Source: Vulcanimicrobiota bacterium
GTDB taxonomy: Bacteria; Vulcanimicrobiota; Vulcanimicrobiia; Eremiobacterales; Eremiobacteraceae
Length of the DNA stretch: 45,360 nucleotides
Direction: 5' to 3'
NCBI GenBank assembly: GCA_013290125.1
Contig: JABCYQ010000002.1
Coordinates: 192,909 to 238,268 of the forward strand
The translations under genes and the position numbers were made by a program. Under the pieces are notes generated by a model. The model made no database searches. It was not told where the DNA came from and worked only from the letters and a program-made list of their open reading frames with translations. Of this stretch, positions 6,319-45,360 are shown piece after piece (within the stretch, counting starts at the first letter, position 1; each line of letters opens with the position of its first letter).

Positions 6319-7922
6319 TTTCCCAGCGGCCGTTCATCACGGTGATCGCGCTGACGGCCTTGCTCGGCCTTTCGTCCGTTCCGGCATTGCCGCAGACGAT
6401 CGTGCTCGAGGCTGTGCAGTCGCAACAGCTCTCGAACGGTCACGTGCGCGTGCTGCTGCAGTTCAACGGGCCCGTCTCGCTCCGCCCGACGTCTCCGGGT
6501 CCGAACACCAACTATGTGTTGCAGATCGCCGGCGCCACGGCGGCGCCCAACGTGCCGACGTTGCAATCCGTCAACATCGGCAACGTCCAATCGGTCGCGC
6601 TGCAGCAGTTCGGCGCGACCTTGACCATCACGTTCGCGCTGTCGTCGCCGGTGCAACCGACGGTCGCCTCTTCGCCGAGCGGAGTCTACGTCGTCGACAT
6701 TCCGCCTGGCCAATCGCAGACTCAACCGCAGCGTTCGCCGTTCGGACAACCCTCATATGCTACGCCTACTCCCGCACCGGCCGCAAACGGACAGCTGACG
6801 AAGATGATCCGGCTGCGCTACGCGGACGTTTCTGAGGTGGTCGGCATTTTGACGAATTCAGGCGGCCAGATAGCGCCTTCGTCGGTTTTCAATCCGCAGC
6901 CGAGCAATGTCGGGCTGCAGCAGAACGGTTTGGGCGAGGGCGGATTTCAGGGTGGTTTCCAAGGCGGATTCCAAGGCGGCTTCCAGGGCGGGTTCGGCCA
7001 GCCGACGGTAGGCGGCTACAATCAGTCACCGTTCGGCAACAACGGATATAGCAGCGACCAGAGTGGAGCGCAGACCGGTCAGCGTATCAGCGATAACCTC
7101 GCGATCGACCGCCGCCTTAACGCCGTCATCCTCTCGGGCACCGCGGATCAAATCGCGCAGGCGGAAGCGATCATCCGCATCATCGACGTGCCGGTGGACA
7201 GCGTGCTGCTCGACACCGAGGTGCTCGAAGTCACGGACTCCGGCGCAAAGGCGCTGGGCTTAGATTACAATCAGACCACGACGGATCCGCTCACCCACGT
7301 CTACAACCAGCAGTCGCAGATACTCAACAACATCAACGCCGGGGCGGTCCCTGGATCGATCCCGCTGCAGTCGAATATTTTCTTGCTCGTCAGCAAAGGA
7401 CTGGCGAAGGTGCTCGCGTCGCCCAAGATCCTGACCGAGGACAATCAGGCGGCCTACATCTTGACCGGCGACTCGCTGCCCATCCGCGTCACCACGCCGA
7501 CGAGCGTCGGCGGAGTCGGCGCGGTCTCGAGCCAGGTCGAGTACATCAACGTCGGCGTCAATCTGGAGATATTGCCGCACGTCACAGGCGACGGCGGTGT
7601 CGATACCGGCGTCTACTCTCAAGTCTCGTCGGTGACCGGCTTTGACAGCGCCAACGATCCGCAGATCTCCACGCGCCAGGCGCAGACCAAAGTCATCCTG
7701 CGCGAGGGTCAGTCGCTTGTGATCGGCGGCCTCATCCAGAACCGGGACATCCGGAACCTCCAGAAGATCCCGATACTCGGCGATCTGCCACTTGTCGGCG
7801 CGCTGTTTCGTTTCTACACCGAGACGCGCGAGAACACGAATTTGATCATCACCGTCACGCCGCACATCATCGCTGCGCCCGTGACGAGCGGTGTCGCGCC
7901 GATCATCTCTCCGGTTCCATAG
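6315..7922 (+). CDS. Secretin, PilQ/GspD-like outer-membrane channel
   Basis: Outer-membrane multimeric gate of a type IV pilus or type II secretion system. A signal peptide (about 1-26, ending VPALPQ) is followed by an AMIN-like beta domain (about 28-130), as in PilQ. A secretin N domain (about 160-292) starts MIRLRYADVSEVVGIL and ends LNAVILSGTADQIAQAEAI, interrupted by a Gly/Gln-rich insert. The secretin core (about 355-520) has LAKVLASPKILTEDNQAA, INVGVNLEILPHV and the terminal KIPILGDLPLVGALF signature. The start is ATG at 6315, overlapping the SEDS stop as ATGA. No pilus motor or pilin genes are in the window, so the system is undecided between PilQ and GspD; AMIN favours PilQ. Confidence 0.93.
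   Translation: MISQRPFITVIALTALLGLSSVPALPQTIVLEAVQSQQLSNGHVRVLLQFNGPVSLRPTSPGPNTNYVLQIAGATAAPNVPTLQSVNIGNVQSVALQQFGATLTITFALSSPVQPTVASSPSGVYVVDIPPGQSQTQPQRSPFGQPSYATPTPAPAANGQLTKMIRLRYADVSEVVGILTNSGGQIAPSSVFNPQPSNVGLQQNGLGEGGFQGGFQGGFQGGFQGGFGQPTVGGYNQSPFGNNGYSSDQSGAQTGQRISDNLAIDRRLNAVILSGTADQIAQAEAIIRIIDVPVDSVLLDTEVLEVTDSGAKALGLDYNQTTTDPLTHVYNQQSQILNNINAGAVPGSIPLQSNIFLLVSKGLAKVLASPKILTEDNQAAYILTGDSLPIRVTTPTSVGGVGAVSSQVEYINVGVNLEILPHVTGDGGVDTGVYSQVSSVTGFDSANDPQISTRQAQTKVILREGQSLVIGGLIQNRDIRNLQKIPILGDLPLVGALFRFYTETRENTNLIITVTPHIIAAPVTSGVAPIISPVP
6939..6998 (+). repeat. 12-base tandem repeat encoding Gly-Gly-Phe-Gln units
   Basis: Five consecutive 12-base units in the secretin gene encode GGFQ four times and then GGFG (residues 209-228). 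Third-position differences between units show the array is not freshly expanded. It lies in the flexible insert of the secretin N domain, followed by more Gly/Asn/Gln-rich sequence up to about residue 256. Confidence 0.95.
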
Positions 7923-9391: not shown

Positions 9392-9419
9392 TGAAGGGGC
9401 CGACGCTAGTCGGCCCACA
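9392..9419 (+). repeat. Palindromic repeat copy A (single unit)
   Basis: One unit of the dispersed family: TGAAGGGGCCGAC, loop GCTA, GTCGGCCCACA. The inner stem GGCCGAC/GTCGGCC is perfect over seven base pairs. The unit is identical over 28 bases to the right unit inside purL (44377-44404). It stands alone 19 bases after the YibQ stop, downstream of a run of six T, where it may also act as a 3' mRNA hairpin. Confidence 0.9.
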
Positions 9420-9479: not shown

Positions 9480-10370
9480 ATGCCTCGCGCAACCGTCACC
9501 TTGGCGGATCTCGCAGATCCGCCTGATACCGCCACGTTAGAAGCTCTCGACGAATCCGCCACCGCACGCGCCATCGCTTCGATGCGCTCCAAGCTGATGC
9601 GCCGGCGCAAAGCGTTGATCGGTCATACGTCGGACGAACCAGAGCTCGATCGCGTCATCGCGTCGCTGCGCCGGCTGCAAAATCCGCAGCTCACCGCCTA
9701 TGCGTTGGAGAACGGGCTCGTCCTGTCGGAGCCGTTCAACGGCATCGCCCGCGCGTGTCCACCAGCATCGTCGAAGGCTGCGCGCTTCGCGGCCGATGCG
9801 ATGGTCGGCAAGCGCGCACCGGTCGCGCTCGTTCGCGCACTAGCCGCCTTCGGCGACGCCGCGCTCAGCCTCGCGCGCGCAGCAGGCGTTCGGATTCGTA
9901 TCGTCGCCGCCGGCATACGCTTCTCGCAGGCATCGGCATCGGTCGCGCGCTGCGTGCCGGGGATCGACGAGTGGGAAGCGCCGCCTTCTGGACTTTTTGT
10001 GGTTGAAGATCGAACGGTCTTACTGCGCGATCGCGCGCTGCATATGACGGCAGCCCACGAATTCGCGCACGCTCTCGACGCCGCGCTAGCGGCAAGACCG
10101 CGATCGTATTTCTCGTTCGAAAGCGAAGAACTGCGGTACTATTTCTCCACCGCGACGGGCTATGTGAACGAATACGCAGCCAGCGGCCTCGACGAGTATT
10201 TCGCCGAAAGCGTGCGCGCGTACGTCGAGGTGAACGACCCTGCGTGCGCGTGGCTGCCGCTGACCAGACAGGACCTGTATCTTCGCGACCCGCGGATGTT
10301 CGGACTCGTGGATCGGCTCTTTGCAAGTGGATTTTCATCCCGGGAGCGACGCCGCGCAAAGAGACGCTGA
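9480..10370 (+). CDS. Predicted zinc metalloprotease, anthrax lethal factor-like (ATLF) fold
   Basis: A 296-residue protein with a zincin motif, HEFAHALD at residues 193-200 (His193, Glu194, His197). It is followed after about 40 residues by DEYFAESVRAY (238-248), where an acidic residue (probably Glu243) would be the third zinc ligand. This spacing resembles the anthrax lethal-factor-like peptidase domain; the assignment rests on motif layout only. The N-terminal 120 residues are helical and unrecognised. No signal peptide is evident. ATG at 9480. The C-terminal 65-70 residues recur in a broken copy at 11752-12009, beyond two DUF4386 genes. Confidence 0.75.
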   Translation: MPRATVTLADLADPPDTATLEALDESATARAIASMRSKLMRRRKALIGHTSDEPELDRVIASLRRLQNPQLTAYALENGLVLSEPFNGIARACPPASSKAARFAADAMVGKRAPVALVRALAAFGDAALSLARAAGVRIRIVAAGIRFSQASASVARCVPGIDEWEAPPSGLFVVEDRTVLLRDRALHMTAAHEFAHALDAALAARPRSYFSFESEELRYYFSTATGYVNEYAASGLDEYFAESVRAYVEVNDPACAWLPLTRQDLYLRDPRMFGLVDRLFASGFSSRERRRAKRR

Positions 10371-10484
10371 CGAAGCAGGCTACATCTAGCGAACGCAACG
10401 AAAGTGCGCGAAGGAAGAAAGAGCCCCCTGATCTCGGGTCGAACATTCCTAGTCAATGGTTGTTCCGTCGCTTAGCGCCACTAA

Positions 10485-11057
10485 ATGACAGAACGGATTG
10501 CAGACGCACAGCCGCGTTCTAAAGCCAAAATTACCGGCGTCGTCTATTTGCTTTACTTTCTGACGGCAATGCTCGGCGAGTTCTTGGTTGGCCGCGGGCT
10601 TGTTGAATTTGGCAACGCCGTCAACCTCATCGCGTTCACATTCTACATCGCTGTGACCGTGCTCTTCTATCACATGTTTAAGCCGGTGAACAGGAACTTC
10701 TCGTTGCTCGCAGCGCTCTTCAGCATCGTGGGATGCATCATCGGATCTCTTAGCGTCTTTCATCTCGCCCCGCCCCACATCAGCGCCTTTCTGTTTTTCG
10801 GACCCTATTGCGTCCTGATCGGTTACCTAATTCTCAAGTCTACCTTCCTGCCTCGGTTTCTTGGCGTATTGATGGTGTCTGCTGGACTGGGTTGGCTAAT
10901 ATTCCTGTTACCGTCGCTCGCAGACTCTCTTGCTAACGCCATTGAAGCCCTTGGCATCCTGGCGGAAGCGTCACTGATGCTGTGGCTCTTCGTGATGGGC
11001 GTGAACGAGCAACGATGGAGGGCGCAGGCCAATCGACCCGAGCCTGCTGCTCTTTGA
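10485..11057 (+). CDS. DUF4386-family membrane protein
   Basis: A 190-residue integral membrane protein with about six hydrophobic segments. DUF4386 landmarks are a short basic N-terminus leading to KITGVVYLLYFL, then MFKPVNRNFSLLAA, LILKSTFLPRFLGVLM and a C-terminal LWLFVMGVNEQRW. The function of the family is unknown. It is a clear paralogue of the following gene, sharing KPVN, STFLPR-LGVLM and VMGVNEQRW blocks. ATG at 10485. The 114 bases before it hold no feature I recognise. Confidence 0.88.
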   Translation: MTERIADAQPRSKAKITGVVYLLYFLTAMLGEFLVGRGLVEFGNAVNLIAFTFYIAVTVLFYHMFKPVNRNFSLLAALFSIVGCIIGSLSVFHLAPPHISAFLFFGPYCVLIGYLILKSTFLPRFLGVLMVSAGLGWLIFLLPSLADSLANAIEALGILAEASLMLWLFVMGVNEQRWRAQANRPEPAAL

Positions 11058-11123
11058 TCGAATAGCTCGCATCAGGAAGATTGATTACACGCCCACCCGA
11101 CTGGTGAAGGGGATTGCAAAAAA

Positions 11124-11648
11124 ATGTCACCACCTCTCAAAGCCAGGATCACCGGTGCCCTTTATTTCCTCAGCTTACTGATGGGATTATTCGGCGACTA
11201 CATCTTTCACGACAAGGCTTACACAGCCGGCAACCTCGAGATCGTCGGCATGGTCGCTGTGACGCTCCTCTTCTATGCCATCTTCAAGCCGGTGAATAAG
11301 CGCCTGGCGTTGCTCGCGGCGTCCTTGAATCTCGTGGCGCTGATCTTTGAGGCTCAGCGCGTTAACCCTCAGGGGCAGGGCGTCGGCCTGTTGATTCACG
11401 GAATGTCCTTCATCGTCTTCGCATACCTCATCTACAGGTCGACCTTCTTGCCTCGGATTCTAGGCGTGTTGATGGCGATTGCCGGATTGGGTTGGTTGAC
11501 CTATCTGTCGACGCCGTTCCAAAACTACATTTTGGCCGTCGATCTGCTCGGCGAAGGAACGGTGATGCTGTGGTTGCTCGTCATGGGCGTGAACGAGCAA
11601 CGATGGAAGGAACAGGACAACGCAGCACGCGCGTTCACAGACACGTGA
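11124..11648 (+). CDS. DUF4386-family membrane protein, second copy
   Basis: A 174-residue membrane protein with about five or six hydrophobic segments. Landmarks KARITGALYFLSLLMG, IFKPVNKRLALLAASLN, YRSTFLPRILGVLMAIAGLG and LLVMGVNEQRWKEQ align with the preceding gene, so the two are tandem paralogues. It is 16 residues shorter, mainly at the N-terminus. The ribosome site GAAGGGGA lies upstream of ATG 11124. Both members keep intact frames, so both are probably expressed. Confidence 0.88.
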   Translation: MSPPLKARITGALYFLSLLMGLFGDYIFHDKAYTAGNLEIVGMVAVTLLFYAIFKPVNKRLALLAASLNLVALIFEAQRVNPQGQGVGLLIHGMSFIVFAYLIYRSTFLPRILGVLMAIAGLGWLTYLSTPFQNYILAVDLLGEGTVMLWLLVMGVNEQRWKEQDNAARAFTDT

Positions 11649-11751
11649 AGGACGCGGCCTGGATAAGGGCAGTCCAAAGCGCTTTATGTCGACGGATCGA
11701 CAAGCGTCAAATAGAGAATAAAAACAGACCTCTTTAATTTCGCGAATTGTT

Positions 11752-12009
11752 CACTTCGCTACCGCCACCGGTTACGTGAACGAGTACGCCGCAAGCGGGA
11801 TCGACGAATACCTCGCAGAGAGCATCAGAGCCTATGTCGAAGTGAACGATCCAGCCTGCGCCTGGCTGCCGCTCACGCGCCAAGATCTGTTCTTGCGCGA
11901 TCCCAGAATGTTCGGACTCGTCGATCGTCTCTTCGCCAGCGGTTTTGTGGCGTGTGAGCGCCGCTCGGCAACGAGGCGGAACGACGGCACAACCCTTCGC
12001 GCGACGTAG
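11752..12009 (+). pseudogene. Truncated second copy of the metalloprotease C-terminus
   Basis: Homology to the gene at 9480-10370 begins near 11752 at the codons for FATATGYVNEY and runs through DEYLAESIRAYVEVNDP, WLPLTRQDLFLRDPR and LVDRLFASGF. After that the tail differs. Over the 55 residues from EYAASG to ASGF only four amino acids differ from the full gene, but more than half of the codons differ, mostly silently. The HEFAH zinc site and everything before it are absent. No good start codon or ribosome site precedes it (a GTG at 11776 is in frame), so I call it a remnant. The sequence just before the homology (11649-11751) is relatively AT-rich. Confidence 0.85.
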
Positions 12010-26984: not shown

Positions 26985-27971
26985 ATGCGTGGAATGATCC
27001 TCGCGGGCGGACTCTCGACGCGTCTGCAGCCGCTGACGAACGATCTCCCAAAACCGCTCGTGCCGGTGCTCGACCGGCCGGTGATCGGACACGTCATCGA
27101 CTATCTGGCCGCGCACGCCGTCAGCGATCTCGTCGTCAACGTCCATTATTTCGCTGAAGACGTCGAGCGGTACGTGGGCGACGGCCGCGACTTCGGCGTC
27201 CGCATGTCCTACTTGCGCGAGCCCACGCTCATGGGCAGCGCCGGCGCGGTGAAGCAGGTCGAGGATCTCTTCGATTCGACATTCGTCGTCATCGGCTGCG
27301 ATGACGTGACCGACGTCGATCTCGGCGCCGCGCTCGCATTTCATCGGGAGCGCCGCGCGGAGGCGACCATCGTGCTCGTGGAAGCCGACGACGTCTCGCA
27401 GTATGGCGTGGTCGTCACGGAAGCGGATGGCAGCATCACCGATTTTCAGGAGAAACCGGCGCCAGGTACCGAACGCAGCAAACTCGTCAACACGGGCATT
27501 TACGTCTTCGAACCGGAACTGCTCGCGCGCATTCCGGCCGCGACGTTCTACGACTTCGGCAAGCAGGTATTCCCCGAGCTTCTCGGCGCGGAAGCGCGTT
27601 TTTTCGGAATGCAGCAGCGCGCGTATTGGTGCGATATCGGCACGCCGTCGGAATACCGGCGCGCGCACGCGGACGCGCTAGCCGGCAAGGTCCGCCTCTC
27701 GATCGGCGACGGCGCAGAGATCCGCGACTGCACGCTTGTGGGTGCGGGTGCGACTATCGATCCGACCGCACGCGTTGAGGGCTTTGCTTCGGTCGGAGCG
27801 GGTTCGAGCGTCGGTCCCGGAGCGGTCGTCGATTGCTCGATCGTGTGGCGCGGCGTGCAGATCGGGTCGAACGCGCACTTGCTGAACACGATTCTCGCTG
27901 ACGACGTCGTCGTGGAACCGCGCGCATTCGTCGAAGGCGGCCTCCACGCCCGCGCCTCGCGGATTCGATAA
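26985..27971 (+). CDS. Sugar-1-phosphate nucleotidyltransferase, copy 2
   Basis: Second two-domain pyrophosphorylase, a paralogue of the gene at 18995-20050. LAGGLSTRLQPLTNDLPKPL is the nucleotide-binding loop (Leu-Ser replaces the usual Gly-x-Gly second half). IGCDDVTDVDL holds the metal-binding acid, FQEKPAPGTE the sugar-phosphate Lys, and YWCDIGTPSEY matches the family. A C-terminal hexapeptide-repeat helix (about 235-320) follows. At 328 residues it is shorter than copy 1. ATG 26985 comes two bases after the glycosyltransferase, suggesting it supplies that enzyme's activated sugar. Its stop codon lies in the first unit of the tandem repeat that follows. Confidence 0.9.
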   Translation: MRGMILAGGLSTRLQPLTNDLPKPLVPVLDRPVIGHVIDYLAAHAVSDLVVNVHYFAEDVERYVGDGRDFGVRMSYLREPTLMGSAGAVKQVEDLFDSTFVVIGCDDVTDVDLGAALAFHRERRAEATIVLVEADDVSQYGVVVTEADGSITDFQEKPAPGTERSKLVNTGIYVFEPELLARIPAATFYDFGKQVFPELLGAEARFFGMQQRAYWCDIGTPSEYRRAHADALAGKVRLSIGDGAEIRDCTLVGAGATIDPTARVEGFASVGAGSSVGPGAVVDCSIVWRGVQIGSNAHLLNTILADDVVVEPRAFVEGGLHARASRIR

Positions 27972-28036
27972 CGTAAGCCGATTCGATAACGTACGACGAG
28001 TTCGATAACGTACGCCGATTTCGATTACGTACGCGA
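27962..28036 (+). repeat. Four degenerate 18-20-base tandem units around GATTCGATAACGTACG
   Basis: Units at about 27962, 27980, 28000 and 28019 share TTCGATAACGTA, with TTCGATTACGTA in the last. The first unit contains the stop codon of the preceding gene. Each carries the near-palindrome CGTACG or CGTAAG. There are no spacers, so this is not a CRISPR array. Palindromic repeat pair B begins 25 bases later. Confidence 0.85.
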
Positions 28037-28061: not shown

Positions 28062-28128
28062 TGAAGGGGCCGATTTTATATCGGCCCACGTTTGCTTCGC
28101 CAGGGCCGACATAAAGTCGGCCCCTTCA
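28062..28128 (+). repeat. Palindromic repeat copy B (outward-tailed inverted pair)
   Basis: The left unit is TGAAGGGGCCGA, loop TTTTATA, TCGGCCCACG. After a 13-base spacer the right unit is the inverted form, GGGCCGAC, loop ATAAA, GTCGGCCCCTTCA. The TGAAGG ends face outward, so the whole 67 bases can also fold as one long hairpin. It sits in the 190-base gap between the nucleotidyltransferase and comF. Confidence 0.9.
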
Positions 28129-33791: not shown

Positions 33792-34273
33792 CGAAAGCCT
33801 CGGCGTATGCGATCGTCCGAGCGCGATTCAACCAAGAGATAACCGACGCGCTGCACGCAGGAGCGATGCGCGCCTTCTCCGATCACGCGCGCGGCTCGAA
33901 AGTGGAGACGTTCGACGTTCCTGGCGCATTTGAGTTGCCGCTCGCAGCGCTGTGGCTTGCCCGCACCGGCAAGTATAGCGCGGTGGTCTGTCTCGGCTGC
34001 GTGATCCGCGGTGAGACACCGCACTTCGACTACGTGGCCGGCGAGGCAGCGCGCGGAATCGCAAGCGTCTCGCTCGCCACCGGTGTGCCGGTGATCTTCG
34101 GCGTGCTCACCACGGATAACACCGCTCAAGCGTGGGCCCGCGCCGGCAAAAAGCGGCGCGGAACGGCCCCGCACACTGGCCCAGACCCCGCCGGCGGCAA
34201 CAAAGGCTACGAGGCGGCAGTCGCAGCCATCGAGATGGCGGCCCTCAAGAAAAAGCTCCGAGTTAAATCCTGA
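33788..34273 (+). CDS. ribH: 6,7-dimethyl-8-ribityllumazine synthase
   Basis: Joins the RibD and RibB products to give lumazine, the substrate of RibE, as a shell or pentamer. Motifs are [30 protein letters not shown] (catalytic His79), [17 protein letters not shown] (phosphate-binding Arg118) and [16 protein letters not shown]. Between ARAG and NKG there are about 13 more residues than in E. coli RibH ([16 protein letters not shown]). GTG 33788 overlaps ribBA. The TGA stop (34271-34273) is the first three bases of palindromic repeat copy C. Confidence 0.95.
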
Positions 34274-34339
34274 AGGGGCCGACTTTATGTCGGCCCACGT
34301 GGTTTTTTCGCCCGGGCCCACATAAAGTCGGCCCCTCCA
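34271..34339 (+). repeat. Palindromic repeat copy C (outward-tailed inverted pair) providing the ribH stop
   Basis: The left unit is TGAAGGGGCCGAC, loop TTTAT, GTCGGCCCACG. A 14-base spacer with a run of six T follows, then an inverted, slightly degenerate right unit GGGCCCAC, loop ATAAA, GTCGGCCCCTCCA. The layout is the same as copy B. The first TGA is the ribH stop codon. The pair may act as the 3' mRNA structure of the riboflavin operon. Confidence 0.9.
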
Positions 34340-38232: not shown

Positions 38233-39315
38233 ATGCGACCGGCCCCTCCCCACATCGCGTATGCCGACGGCATCATTGAGATCCTCGATCAGACGCGCCT
38301 CCCGTCCGAGATGGTCGTCGTCAAACTGCGATCGGTGCAGCGCGTGATCGACGCCATCCGGGGACTGAAGGTGCGCGGCGCACCGGCGATCGGGATCGTC
38401 GGCGCATACGGCATGTGCATCGCGGCGCGAGCGGCGGGCGGCGTCGCGCGCAACGCGGACGACTTCTTCAAAGTTCTCGACGACGCCGGGCGAGCGATCG
38501 GCGCCGCTCGGCCCACGGCCGTGAATCTGACCTGGGCGATCGAGAAGATGAAGCGGCACGGGCGTGAGGTGAGCGCGACCGGCCAGGGCGTCGTGCAGCT
38601 GGTCGCCGCCCTTGAAGAAATGGCCCGATCGATCCATGCTGACGACGCGGCGACTTGCCGCGCGATCGGCGATGCAGGCGCGTCGCTCCTTCCGACGGGC
38701 GCAGTCGTGTACACGCACTGTAATACCGGCACGCTCGCGACCGGGGGATACGGCACGGCGCTCGGCGTCGTGCGCTCCGCCTGGAACGCAGGGTTTCTCA
38801 AGCACGTGTTCGTCGGCGAAACTCGGCCGATGCTTCAAGGCGCCCGCTTGACGGCTTGGGAGCTCGTTCGAGACGGGATTCCATTTTCGCTCGTCACGGA
38901 TTCGATGGCGGCTGCGCTCATGCGCCGCGGTGAGATCAGCGCCGTGGTCGTCGGCGCCGATCGGATCGCGCGCAACGGCGACGTCGCCAACAAGATCGGC
39001 ACCTACGGCCTTGCGCTCAGCGCGAGCGCGCACGAGCTGCCGTTCTACGTCGCCGCACCGATCTCAAGCATCGACGTCGGCATCGCGAGCGGCAGCGACA
39101 TATTCATTGAAGAACGCGACGGGATTGAGGTGCTCGAATTCGCGGGCGTGCGGATCGCGCCGGCGGAGGCACGAGCCGCAAACCCGGCGTTCGACGTGAC
39201 GCCGGCTGCCCTCATATCCGCGATAGTCACAGAGATGGGCGTGCTGCGGCCGCCCTTTGAGCCCGCGATCATCGCAGCCAGCGCGGGCGGCAGCGCGACG
39301 AGCGCACTGACGTGA
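38233..39315 (+). CDS. mtnA: S-methyl-5-thioribose-1-phosphate isomerase
   Basis: Converts methylthioribose 1-phosphate to the ribulose form in methionine salvage. Family motifs are KVRGAPAIGIVGAYGM (46-61), RPTAVNLTWAI, VVYTHCNTGTLATGGYGTAL (catalytic Cys163), FVGETRPMLQGARLTAWEL and VVVGADRIARNGDVANKIGT (catalytic Asp243). At 360 residues it has the normal length for MtnA rather than for eIF2B-related proteins. ATG 38233. The end overlaps holA as GTGA. No other mtn gene is nearby. Confidence 0.95.
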   Translation: MRPAPPHIAYADGIIEILDQTRLPSEMVVVKLRSVQRVIDAIRGLKVRGAPAIGIVGAYGMCIAARAAGGVARNADDFFKVLDDAGRAIGAARPTAVNLTWAIEKMKRHGREVSATGQGVVQLVAALEEMARSIHADDAATCRAIGDAGASLLPTGAVVYTHCNTGTLATGGYGTALGVVRSAWNAGFLKHVFVGETRPMLQGARLTAWELVRDGIPFSLVTDSMAAALMRRGEISAVVVGADRIARNGDVANKIGTYGLALSASAHELPFYVAAPISSIDVGIASGSDIFIEERDGIEVLEFAGVRIAPAEARAANPAFDVTPAALISAIVTEMGVLRPPFEPAIIAASAGGSATSALT

Positions 39316-40430
39316 GTCCTAAGAAGGCCGGCGAGCCGGCGCCGCGTTCGCCGAAGAAACCAGCGCCGAAAACTAAAGTTGGCGCGAAGTCCATCCTTTT
39401 ATACTACAATTTTGTCGACGCGCAGCCGGATCCGCTGCCGCGGATCGTCGTGCTGACAGGTCCGCAACCCATGCTCGCTTCGAATGTCTACGCTCGCATC
39501 ATCGCGTCGGTGCTTCCCGACGAATCGTCGCGCGCGCTCAACTTGGACGAGATCGACCCATCCGACGACGTTGCCGTCCGCGCGATTCCGGGCAAAGCAG
39601 CCGCCTTGCCATTCCTCTCCGCTCGGCGTGCAGTGGTCGTGAGGGGAGTCGTGGATCTCAAGGCCGACGATCGAGCCGGCCTGCGTTCCGTGCTCGAAGG
39701 GATGCCCGAACATGCGCTCGTCATCGTAGACCACTCTGGCGTGCCGCAGCGTGCCCAAGGCAGACGGTTGGCGGATGAAGCGGCCTCTCTCGCCGGCGCG
39801 GCCGACGACGGTATCGTCGTCGAGTGTACGCTCGACGGGAGGTCGAGCGGACGATTCGTGGACGAGATCGCCGCGCGCGCCGGCGTGAGCGTCGAACCGG
39901 CGGCACGCTCGCTCTTGGCCGGAAGCCAAGACGCGGCGGAGATCACGAATGTCATCGAGCGCCTGGCGCTGACGGCGGTCAAGGGCCGCATCACGTCCGA
40001 CGACGTCAAGAACACGATCCAACCCTACGACGACATCAAGCTGTGGAATTTCACCGCCGCTGTCCACGCCGGCGATACGGACGGCGCACTGCGCCTCGTC
40101 CGCGAGGTCATGGACAAGCCGGACAATATCGCCGGACCGCTTTTCGTCCTCGCGGCCGACGCGCTCGTCATCTGGGAGCTGAAGCGCACGTCCGCAGACG
40201 AGTATGCTGCGGCAGCCGGCTTGAGCCCATATCGCGTCGCCGCCCTGCATTCTGCGGCGCGCTCAATAACGCTAGAACTGGCAGCCAAGGGAGTCACATT
40301 GACCAAACGCGCGCTCGATCATATGTTCAACGGGCGCGGCGATCCGTCGGTCCTGCTCGACGAGCTGATCGTCCGCATGTGTCAGCTGCGCCGAGGGCGA
40401 GAACGCACGCGCCGAGAAGCCATCGCGTAA
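39312..40430 (+). CDS. holA: DNA polymerase III delta subunit (HolA-like)
   Basis: Clamp-loader subunit that opens the sliding clamp. Sequence conservation is weak in this family. The pattern RIVVLTGPQPMLASNVYARII replaces the usual opening, followed by RRAVVVRGV, GMPEHALVIVDHSGVPQ, GSQDAAEITNVIERLAL and IQPYDDIKLWNFTAAVHAGD, then the C-terminal collar helices. GTG 39312 gives 372 residues with a basic, Pro/Lys-rich N-terminal extension of about 43 residues, absent from typical HolA. A later start is possible, since a promoter-like TATACTACAAT sits inside the extension. It overlaps mtnA by four bases, and purB follows at once. Confidence 0.82.
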   Translation: MSPKKAGEPAPRSPKKPAPKTKVGAKSILLYYNFVDAQPDPLPRIVVLTGPQPMLASNVYARIIASVLPDESSRALNLDEIDPSDDVAVRAIPGKAAALPFLSARRAVVVRGVVDLKADDRAGLRSVLEGMPEHALVIVDHSGVPQRAQGRRLADEAASLAGAADDGIVVECTLDGRSSGRFVDEIAARAGVSVEPAARSLLAGSQDAAEITNVIERLALTAVKGRITSDDVKNTIQPYDDIKLWNFTAAVHAGDTDGALRLVREVMDKPDNIAGPLFVLAADALVIWELKRTSADEYAAAAGLSPYRVAALHSAARSITLELAAKGVTLTKRALDHMFNGRGDPSVLLDELIVRMCQLRRGRERTRREAIA

Positions 40431-43093: not shown

Positions 43094-45360
43094 GTGGCCG
43101 CGCAAGCGCCGGCTTCTGCGGCGGAACCCCTACGGTGCTCGGGGAGCGACGAAGAACTGCGCCGCGAGGCGCGACGCGAACGGCTCGCCCTAACCCCTGA
43201 CGAACTGCGCCAAATCGCGCGGCGCATCGGTCGCGATCCGACTCGCGCTGAAGCTCACGCGTTTGCGATTCAATGGAGCGAACACTGCTCGTATAAGAGC
43301 AGCCGCGCCCTGCTGAAGAAGCTCCCCACACGGAGCAGCGATGTCCTCGTTCCGGTCGGCGAAGACGCCGGAATCTTGCGTGCGGGATTTGTGGACGGCG
43401 TCGAATACGGCGTCGTCGTCGCACACGAGAGCCACAATCATCCATCCCAAGTCGTGCCGTTCGAAGGCGCCGCCACCGGAGTGGGTGGGATTTTGCGCGA
43501 CGTCTTGTGCATGGGCGCCGAAGTCGTCGCAAGCGCCGATCCGTTGCGGTTCGGGAAGCCGGTTCCCGGATCGCACGCGGCGTACGTCGCCGCCGGCGCA
43601 GTGGACGGCATTGCGGCGTACGGCAACGCGGTCGGCGTGCCGAACATCGCCGGCGACATCTACTTCCACGAATCATACATGGAAAATTGTCTCGTGAATG
43701 TGGTCGCGCTCGGTCTCGTGCGCGCCGACCGCATCATCCATAGCCGCGTTCCGCCCGGCGGCGCCGGCTACGACCTCGTGCTGGTCGGGAAGGCGACGGA
43801 CGGTTCCGGATTCGGCGGCGCCGCGTTCGCTTCGCTGATTCTGGATGCGAGCCAATCGCAGGCGAACAAGAGCGCGGTCCAAGTGCCGGATCCGTTCCTC
43901 AAGAACGTGATCATGCGCGCTACCTACGCTGTTTGCGAAGAGGTCTTCAAAAGCGGCATCGCTGTGGGTTTCAAAGACCTCGGCGCCGGCGGCATCATGG
44001 GAAGCAGCAGCGAGCTGTGCAGCGCCGGCGGATTCGGCGCGTTGATCGAGATCGAATCTGTGCCGCAGGCCCTCGCGGGCCTGCCGCCGTTCGTCATCGC
44101 ATGCGCGGAGACGCAGGAGCGCATGCTCTGGGCAGTTCCGCCGTCGTTCACACCGACGTTGCTCTCGATCTACAACGAGCGCTTCACATTGCCCGAGGTG
44201 GCCGCGGGAGCAAGAGCGGCGGTCATAGGCAGGGTGACAGAAGAGAAACGCTATGTGGTGCTCGCGGGAGGCAGCGCCGTGATTGATCTTCCGATCGACG
44301 TCTTGACGGGCTCGATCGCCCGGGATGGGCCGACTAGCGTCGGCCCCTTCAAGGAAACCGTAGACGCCGACCTGACTGAAGGGGCCGACGCTAGTCGGCC
44401 CACATTCGACGACCTCGAAGAAATGACGCTCGCCGTCCTGGCTCATCGCGACGTGTGCAGCCGCCGCCCGTTGATCGAACACTACGATACGGTCGTCCGC
44501 GGCGCAACCGTGATACCGTCCGGCTACGCCGACGCCGGTGTCATCATCATCCGGCGCGGCGGACTTGCGGGCATCGCACTCTCGGTCGACGGCAATCCGC
44601 GCTACGGCGCGATCGACCCTCGGCTTGCCGCAGCGCATGCAGTTGTCGAGTCGGCGCGCAACGTCGCGGCGGTCGGCGCACAACCGATCGGCCTCACGGA
44701 TTGCCTGAACTACGGCAGTCCCGAGGACCCAACGGCCTACGCGCAGCTCGCAGCCGGAATCGACGGCCTTGCGGAAGCCGCCAACGCATTGCACCTCGGC
44801 ATTCCCAGTGAACCGCTGCCGTTCGTCAGCGGCAATGTCTCGCTGTACAACGAGTCGAGCTCCGGGCGGGCGATCGTGCCGTCGGCGATCGTCGCGTGCG
44901 TGGGCCGCGTCGACGACGTCGGGCGCACGGTGACCATGCAGTTCACTGGCGCGGAAAATCGCTTGTTCTTGTTGGGCGAGCGCACGAACCATCTGGGCGG
45001 CTCCGTGGCGGCGAACATCGCCGGCGCGATCGGCGGCGCATTGCCGCCGATCGACTACGAAGAGGCCAACGCATCGATCAAGACAGTCTTCGAAGCGGTT
45101 CGCAGCTCCGCGGTAACCGCTGCGCACGACATCTCCGACGGCGGCTTGATCGCGTGCGTCGCTGAGATGTGTCTCGGCGGTGATGCGGCCGGAACCGTCG
45201 GGGCCCGTCTAGACTCGCCTGCTCGCTGGGCGCCGGACGCAAAGCCCGAGCCGGCGCTCTTCGGCGAGGCGGGCGGCTTCGTCGTGGAAGTTCCGCCGAC
45301 TCGCGTGGGCGCTTTTGAAGCGGTCTGCACCGCGATGGGCGCGCGGCCGGTGGCGATCGG
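43094..45360 (+). CDS. purL: Phosphoribosylformylglycinamidine synthase, small PurL (3' end beyond window)
   Basis: ATP-dependent amidation of FGAR, in the PurLQS complex form. From GTG 43094 the frame stays open for more than 750 codons to the window edge. Motifs are QWSEHCSYKSSRALL (catalytic His), VAHESHNHPSQVVPFEGAAT, GVGGILRDVLCMGAE, FKDLGAGGIMGSSSEL, LTDCLNYGSPEDP, LLGERTNHLGGS and AHDISDGGLIACVAEM. Two successive PurM-like halves are visible. Residues about 411-437, between the halves, are encoded by an inverted pair of the dispersed palindromic repeat, read in frame as GPTSVGPFKETVDADLTEGA and a few more residues. Neither purQ nor purS is in the window. Confidence 0.95.
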   Translation, partial: MAAQAPASAAEPLRCSGSDEELRREARRERLALTPDELRQIARRIGRDPTRAEAHAFAIQWSEHCSYKSSRALLKKLPTRSSDVLVPVGEDAGILRAGFVDGVEYGVVVAHESHNHPSQVVPFEGAATGVGGILRDVLCMGAEVVASADPLRFGKPVPGSHAAYVAAGAVDGIAAYGNAVGVPNIAGDIYFHESYMENCLVNVVALGLVRADRIIHSRVPPGGAGYDLVLVGKATDGSGFGGAAFASLILDASQSQANKSAVQVPDPFLKNVIMRATYAVCEEVFKSGIAVGFKDLGAGGIMGSSSELCSAGGFGALIEIESVPQALAGLPPFVIACAETQERMLWAVPPSFTPTLLSIYNERFTLPEVAAGARAAVIGRVTEEKRYVVLAGGSAVIDLPIDVLTGSIARDGPTSVGPFKETVDADLTEGADASRPTFDDLEEMTLAVLAHRDVCSRRPLIEHYDTVVRGATVIPSGYADAGVIIIRRGGLAGIALSVDGNPRYGAIDPRLAAAHAVVESARNVAAVGAQPIGLTDCLNYGSPEDPTAYAQLAAGIDGLAEAANALHLGIPSEPLPFVSGNVSLYNESSSGRAIVPSAIVACVGRVDDVGRTVTMQFTGAENRLFLLGERTNHLGGSVAANIAGAIGGALPPIDYEEANASIKTVFEAVRSSAVTAAHDISDGGLIACVAEMCLGGDAAGTVGARLDSPARWAPDAKPEPALFGEAGGFVVEVPPTRVGAFEAVCTAMGARPVAI
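44325..44403 (+). repeat. Palindromic repeat copy D (inward-tailed inverted pair) inside purL
   Basis: The left unit (44325-44351) is the inverted form ATGGGCCGAC, loop TAGC, GTCGGCCCCTTCA. After 25 bases the right unit (44377-44403) is TGAAGGGGCCGAC, loop GCTA, GTCGGCCCAC. The two are exact inverted copies except for the last base. Unlike copies B and C, the TGAAGG ends face each other. The pair is translated in frame as part of the PurL interdomain linker; the TGA is split across codons (ACT GAA). Confidence 0.93.

Follow-up and report, generated by a model that had tools for sequence, protein, structure and literature searches.

RAYT-associated REP copies in the reading frame of purL and other genes of an Eremiobacterota genome

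Described palindromes and the purL locus

In Rickettsia, palindromic elements (RPEs) occupy 19 reading frames that code for proteins, and translation and activity have been shown for one of the host enzymes (PMC2229807). In-frame palindromic elements have also been reported from recombination genes of Wolbachia (PMC4224334), and intragenic REPs carrying a GTAG or CGTC tag were described in 2013, with dnaE and dnaE2 among the examples, in a study that already covered the tolerance argument and the provision of stop codons by REPs (PMC3733652). The conversion of selfish repeats into protein segments is thus a known, though rare, phenomenon. Translated REPs as such are already published, and what is new here is the REP family and the phylum and not the kind of system; a literature search for Eremiobacterota together with repetitive sequences returned nothing on point.

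In the window, a stretch of 45,360 nt from the 2.9-Mb draft genome G000, which has mostly Candidatus Eremiobacterota among its named relatives, two inverted copies of a REP with the foot TGAAG are located inside purL (Table 1). Like RPEs, this palindromic repeat lies in frame in conserved genes (purL, murE and others) and is tolerated by the protein, and the parallel with Rickettsia that had been drawn from the sequence alone is sound as an analogy. The anatomy is a different one, as single REPs comprise 25 nt and the purL pair 77 nt compared to 105–146 bp for RPEs (PMC2229807), and the repeats are RAYT-associated and belong to an unrelated lineage. The Wolbachia elements share the in-frame insertion without inactivation of genes but are much longer and again come from another lineage (PMC4224334). 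As in the REPIN–RAYT system (PMC3116915), inverted REP pairs occur at a fixed spacing with a RAYT as the likely mobiliser, but in purL the pair is oriented the other way round with a 25-nt spacing and is not a canonical REPIN. With the REPs of PMC3733652 the family has in common that its copies are short and numerous, lie mostly between co-directional or convergent genes and give stop codons to their neighbours, that a minority is translated in genes including dnaE, and that REPtrons with flanking REPs exist; it differs from them in the TGAAG tag, the phylum, a strong bias towards a single frame and the tandem expansion of half a REP in two proteins.

Our preferred explanation, for which we estimate a probability of about 0.85, is that REPs of the RAYT type landed in the purL linker and became a translated and nearly neutral part of it. 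It builds on the family, copy number, pairing, frame and orthology of the repeats, on their absence elsewhere, on the predicted disorder and on the constraint of the host gene, all of which are documented below.

Table 1: Features of the window (positions in nt from its first letter).
Feature	Position	Strand	Remarks
purL (FGAM synthase subunit PurL, large form)	43094..45360	+	truncated by the end of the window and contig
Linker from first AIRS_C to second AIRS domain	44285..44450	+	hypervariable among relatives (alignment, lengths)
REP copy 1	44326..44351	-	antisense to purL; TGGGCCGACTAGCGTCGGCCCCTTCA; read GPTSVGPF; exact family consensus, loop TAGC
Spacer, 25 nt	44352..44376	+	read KETVDADLT including edges
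REP copy 2	44377..44402	+	sense to purL; read EGADASRP, the frame of most in-gene REPs
Intergenic REP, loop-4 (GCTA) type	9392..9417	+	
Intergenic REP pair, loop-5	28062..28128	.	+ then -, 15-nt spacer, canonical REPIN/BIME
Second intergenic REP pair, loop-5	34271..34339	.	

The two arms in purL are complementary at 26/26 positions. The near-identical inverted copies of the sequence-only reading are thus perfect 26-nt inverted REP copies, whereas the length of 79 bases given there has to be corrected to a span of 77 nt. Each arm forms its own small hairpin (GGGCCGAC-TAGC-GTCGGCCC with the foot CTTCA/TGAAG), the 20-nt REP core has three exact matches in the window versus none in 100 shuffles, and as single-stranded RNA the purL segment has a fold of -63.8 kcal/mol (z = -10). 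The ORF is open across both arms (...ARD-GPTSVGPF-KETVDADLT-EGADASRP-T...), and the TGA of the REP foot is indeed divided between two codons, ACT and GAA, as had been claimed.

AIRS, AIRS_C and FGAR-AT_linker domains were identified in the purL ORF, and the best PDB match for the PurL model is PurL from T. thermophilus (3viu, E 1.4e-53). A dead purL is not suggested, because the C-terminal codons (residues 713–755) recur at the start of contig C28 (G000:C28:5-133) and the gene is complete in the sister species G001. In the AlphaFold model the REP-coded stretch is among the regions of lowest confidence, with a pLDDT under 50 at residues 416–434 and no secondary structure over residues 406–440, and it is predicted to be disordered.

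The REP family and its RAYT

REPs were counted over 2.3 Mb (79%) of G000, allowing up to two stem mismatches, and genes were called with a home-made Markov-model finder and not with a standard annotator. We obtained 354 copies, 341 of them outside genes, which agrees with the earlier description of the repeat as otherwise intergenic, and 13 inside predicted genes compared to about 308 expected for a placement irrespective of genes. The consensus is (C/T)TGAAG-GGGCCGAC-loop-GTCGGCCC with a core of 25 nt, and two subfamilies can be distinguished by a 5-nt loop (TTTAT, 267 copies) and a 4-nt loop (GCTA, 86 copies). Being a palindrome in the range of 20–40 nt with a high copy number and a mostly extragenic location, the TGAAG repeat is a REP; the tag of the GTAG and CGTC superfamilies is absent from its hairpin foot, which reads (C/T)TGAAG. 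Within the first 0.77 Mb, 24 of 103 loop-5 copies show a C-to-T change in the stem and likewise 24 the partner change from G to A, and the GGGCCGAT stem occurs in 53 perfect hairpins; therefore the hairpin is maintained. For both loop types four of the six frames are stop-free. The gaps that harbour REPs lie between convergent genes in 148 cases, between co-directional genes in 163 and between divergent genes in 19, and 11 times the stop codon of the neighbouring gene is the TGA of the REP.

G000 also has two smaller REP families with a GTAG tag, which have the stems GGGCAAGC (36 copies) and GGCGGACC (27 copies). One GTAG-family copy is found within a Pro/Ala-rich protein of 690 aa (C21:50311-52383), which also holds a TGAAG REP. 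Further repeats in the window are three tandem copies of an 18–19 nt unit (TTCGATAACGTA...) at 27964–28020 just upstream of a REP pair, a 12-nt tandem repeat (GGATTCCAAGGC) within a long open frame at 6942–6991, and adjacent segments at 10143–11978 that resemble each other (73% identity over 224 nt and 72% over 98 nt) and appear to be gene copies in tandem.

In the '+-' orientation 88 inverted REP pairs were detected, and 62 of them have exactly 15 nt between the copies, which is the REPIN/BIME layout. The idea that stop codons alone bar such pairs from genes was rejected, as most pairs keep at least two of the six frames open. Only one RAYT (Y1_Tnp) gene was found in G000 (C26:289-549; PF01797, E = 1e-10; HxH motif). 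It is flanked by seven REPs, four upstream and three inverted downstream, and thus forms a REPtron, and we infer that this RAYT mobilised the REPs. The RAYT open frame (L031:223-738 on C26) crosses the first downstream REP and ends near the second, and its C-terminus may carry REP-coded residues.

Of three members of the same genus, G000 has 335 exact hairpins, G001 198 and G002 none, and no relative out of 58 others has more than two; therefore the REP burst belongs to the G000/G001 branch. In G001 the loop-4 type dominates (33 versus 2 in 0.36 Mb read, partly chosen around REP places), which suggests that the loop-5 type expanded in G000 once the two lineages had separated.

Copies in the frame of other genes

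From 20 in-gene matches of the census six were dropped as chance matches with three stem mismatches and a mismatched tag, and a seventh (C12:77585) was left out for its three stem mismatches though its tag matched. Among the 13 remaining copies, ten share the frame GAA GGG GCC GAC GCT AGT CGG CCC, which is read as EGADASRP, or its loop-5 form. A search for the repeat in the same frame of other coding regions had been proposed as a check on the sequence-only reading, and REP-coded peptide in about ten other proteins supports its suggestion that mobile palindromes create protein segments in this lineage. Taking both species together, 13 of the 16 distinct in-gene copies are in this one frame (P about 4e-6 if the four open frames were used equally, a value that ignores dependence between copies). 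One N-terminal case with a weak gene score (C1:4218) may be an artefact of the gene model.

Host genes with Pfam support are murE (two copies), coaX, tgt, lipB, rsuA, purL and the genes for a GT87 protein and an M16 peptidase in G000, and additionally dnaE and the genes for a histidine kinase and a periplasmic binding protein in G001. The REPs mostly code for C-terminal tails and are internal in murE, dnaE and purL. In murE the insert with its two translated REPs amounts to 33 extra residues versus G002, where the alignment runs to residue 72 and resumes at 109 with three residues between, and to 32 versus G004, where it resumes at 105 with none between; as judged from these alignments, this is a clean insertion of about 33 residues. 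The C-terminal REP of rsuA is present in G000 and absent from the orthologue in G001, and conversely dnaE of G001 has (EGADAN)n and a full REP, an array that is absent in G000. For most REP-bearing genes the orthologues in G001 and G002 were judged by alignment coordinates only. Loop-4 copies are found in genes much more often than loop-5 copies (12/86 versus 1/267, P = 2e-7), though both have four open frames, and the simplest guess at a cause is that the loop-4 type is older.

The dnaE linker of G000 (C15, about 39265–39330; compare G001 C3:43195) holds a different, near-perfect palindrome of 53 nt at exactly the place of the G001 array, and this palindrome is translated as well; as it is single-copy, it was rejected as a second repeat family. 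The alignment with G004 leaves about 49 extra residues there too, and these alignments suggest an insertion hot spot in the dnaE linker.

A stronger interpretation of the frame bias would be that the REP family is a recurrent donor of one disordered peptide, EGADASRP with its tandem variants, whose frame is preferentially kept, which replaces inter-domain linkers in essential enzymes and which expands by 18-nt steps. We consider this unlikely; if it were true, a selfish hairpin would repeatedly become raw material for protein linkers. Rather improbable is also that the peptide is positively useful, namely that EGADASRP was selected as an acidic, disordered linker of small residues and amplified by tandem duplication. 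The use of one frame in 13 of 16 copies, (EGADAS)3 in purL and (EGADAN)n in dnaE of G001 would fit such a selection, but the same bias is also expected if the EGADASRP frame is merely the least harmful one, tandem slippage by 18 nt is expected in neutral linkers, and just ~4% of the REP copies are located in genes.

The purL linker in relatives

Counted between the same conserved residues, the PurL linker has a length of 53 residues in G000, 69 in G001, 55 in G002 and 43–53 in the others. The sequence-only reading had assumed that the repeats add about 27 residues, and such a net gain is ruled out by 53 residues in G000 versus 43–55 in the REP-free relatives. Judged from the sequence comparison, the REP sequence has replaced native linker in PurL and the overall length was kept, as the linker of G000 would have only ~27 residues without REP-spacer-REP, below any relative, and ~36 without the two REPs. 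PurL of G001 (91% identical) carries both REPs at the same site and in addition a tandem of the REP half with an 18-nt unit, EGADAS-EGADAS-EGADASRP. In G002 and all other relatives examined the linker sequence is unrelated and no REP is present. REP-free relatives therefore lack the REP-coded sequence, and a conserved linker shared with REP-free genomes, which would have spoken against an insertion, is not seen.

An empty site with the ancestral linker was not found among the relatives, whose linkers are too diverged to align, and because of this the insertion step in purL can be deduced only indirectly, compared to the clean case of murE. The purL pair is the only '-+' arrangement in 2.3 Mb of G000 and deviates from the canonical REPIN/BIME pair in both orientation and spacing. 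As its orientation is unlike that of a canonical pair, the two copies probably inserted independently of each other, and the spacer would then be native sequence.

Compared with G001, the arms of G000 show changes at 2/48 nt, the spacer at 6/21 and the rest of purL at 15.3%, and differences at fourfold sites are found at 1/11 in the arms versus 39% in the gene. PurL is under constraint, with 63/724 residues differing versus 160/407 fourfold sites. The lower divergence of the arms compared to the remaining gene runs counter to neutral ageing after a single insertion, but the excess conservation is modest (P about 0.02–0.03) and either conversion by other REPs or a constraint on the hairpin would explain it. 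The hairpin could accordingly be kept for its DNA or RNA form, for instance as an inter-domain translation pause site or as a REP site bound by a protein, and the very stable fold of the segment and the low divergence of the arms, fourfold sites included, would agree with this. We regard such a role as very unlikely: one loop base in G001 already breaks the perfect complementarity of the arms, no relative besides G001 has kept a REP at this site, and the conservation is statistically weak and could also stem from conversion by other REPs, which number in the hundreds. That the metagenome-assembled genome was wrongly assembled or is chimeric is hardly conceivable. Repeats can mis-join contigs, but G001, a separate genome, shows this arrangement too and has substitutions and a tandem expansion of its own.

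According to the preferred reading, insertion followed by nearly neutral persistence, the RAYT would spread REPs mainly into gaps downstream of genes, and rare hits in coding regions would survive where the protein is disordered or at its end and the frame remains open. Two copies would have landed in the purL linker of the ancestor shared by G000 and G001, sister species within an Eremiobacterota genus, where purL would have stayed open and the REP would have become translated because four of the six frames are stop-free and the linker is disordered and tolerant. Native linker would have been lost, so that the overall length of the PurL linker was kept, and the surviving in-gene REPs would go on to drift, grow by slippage and take the place of native linker. 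Most survivors would be sense insertions read as EGADASRP, with other genes hit mostly at their C-termini and linkers. For PurL itself we infer that the REP insert is close to neutral.

In summary, the known range of protein-coding palindromes now includes an uncultured phylum and a REP family whose tag is new. The effect in any single protein is probably small. The pair of species allows a comparison of shared (purL), species-specific (rsuA, dnaE) and clean (murE) insertions, and thereby makes it testable whether in-frame REPs survive by neutral filtering or by selection for one peptide.
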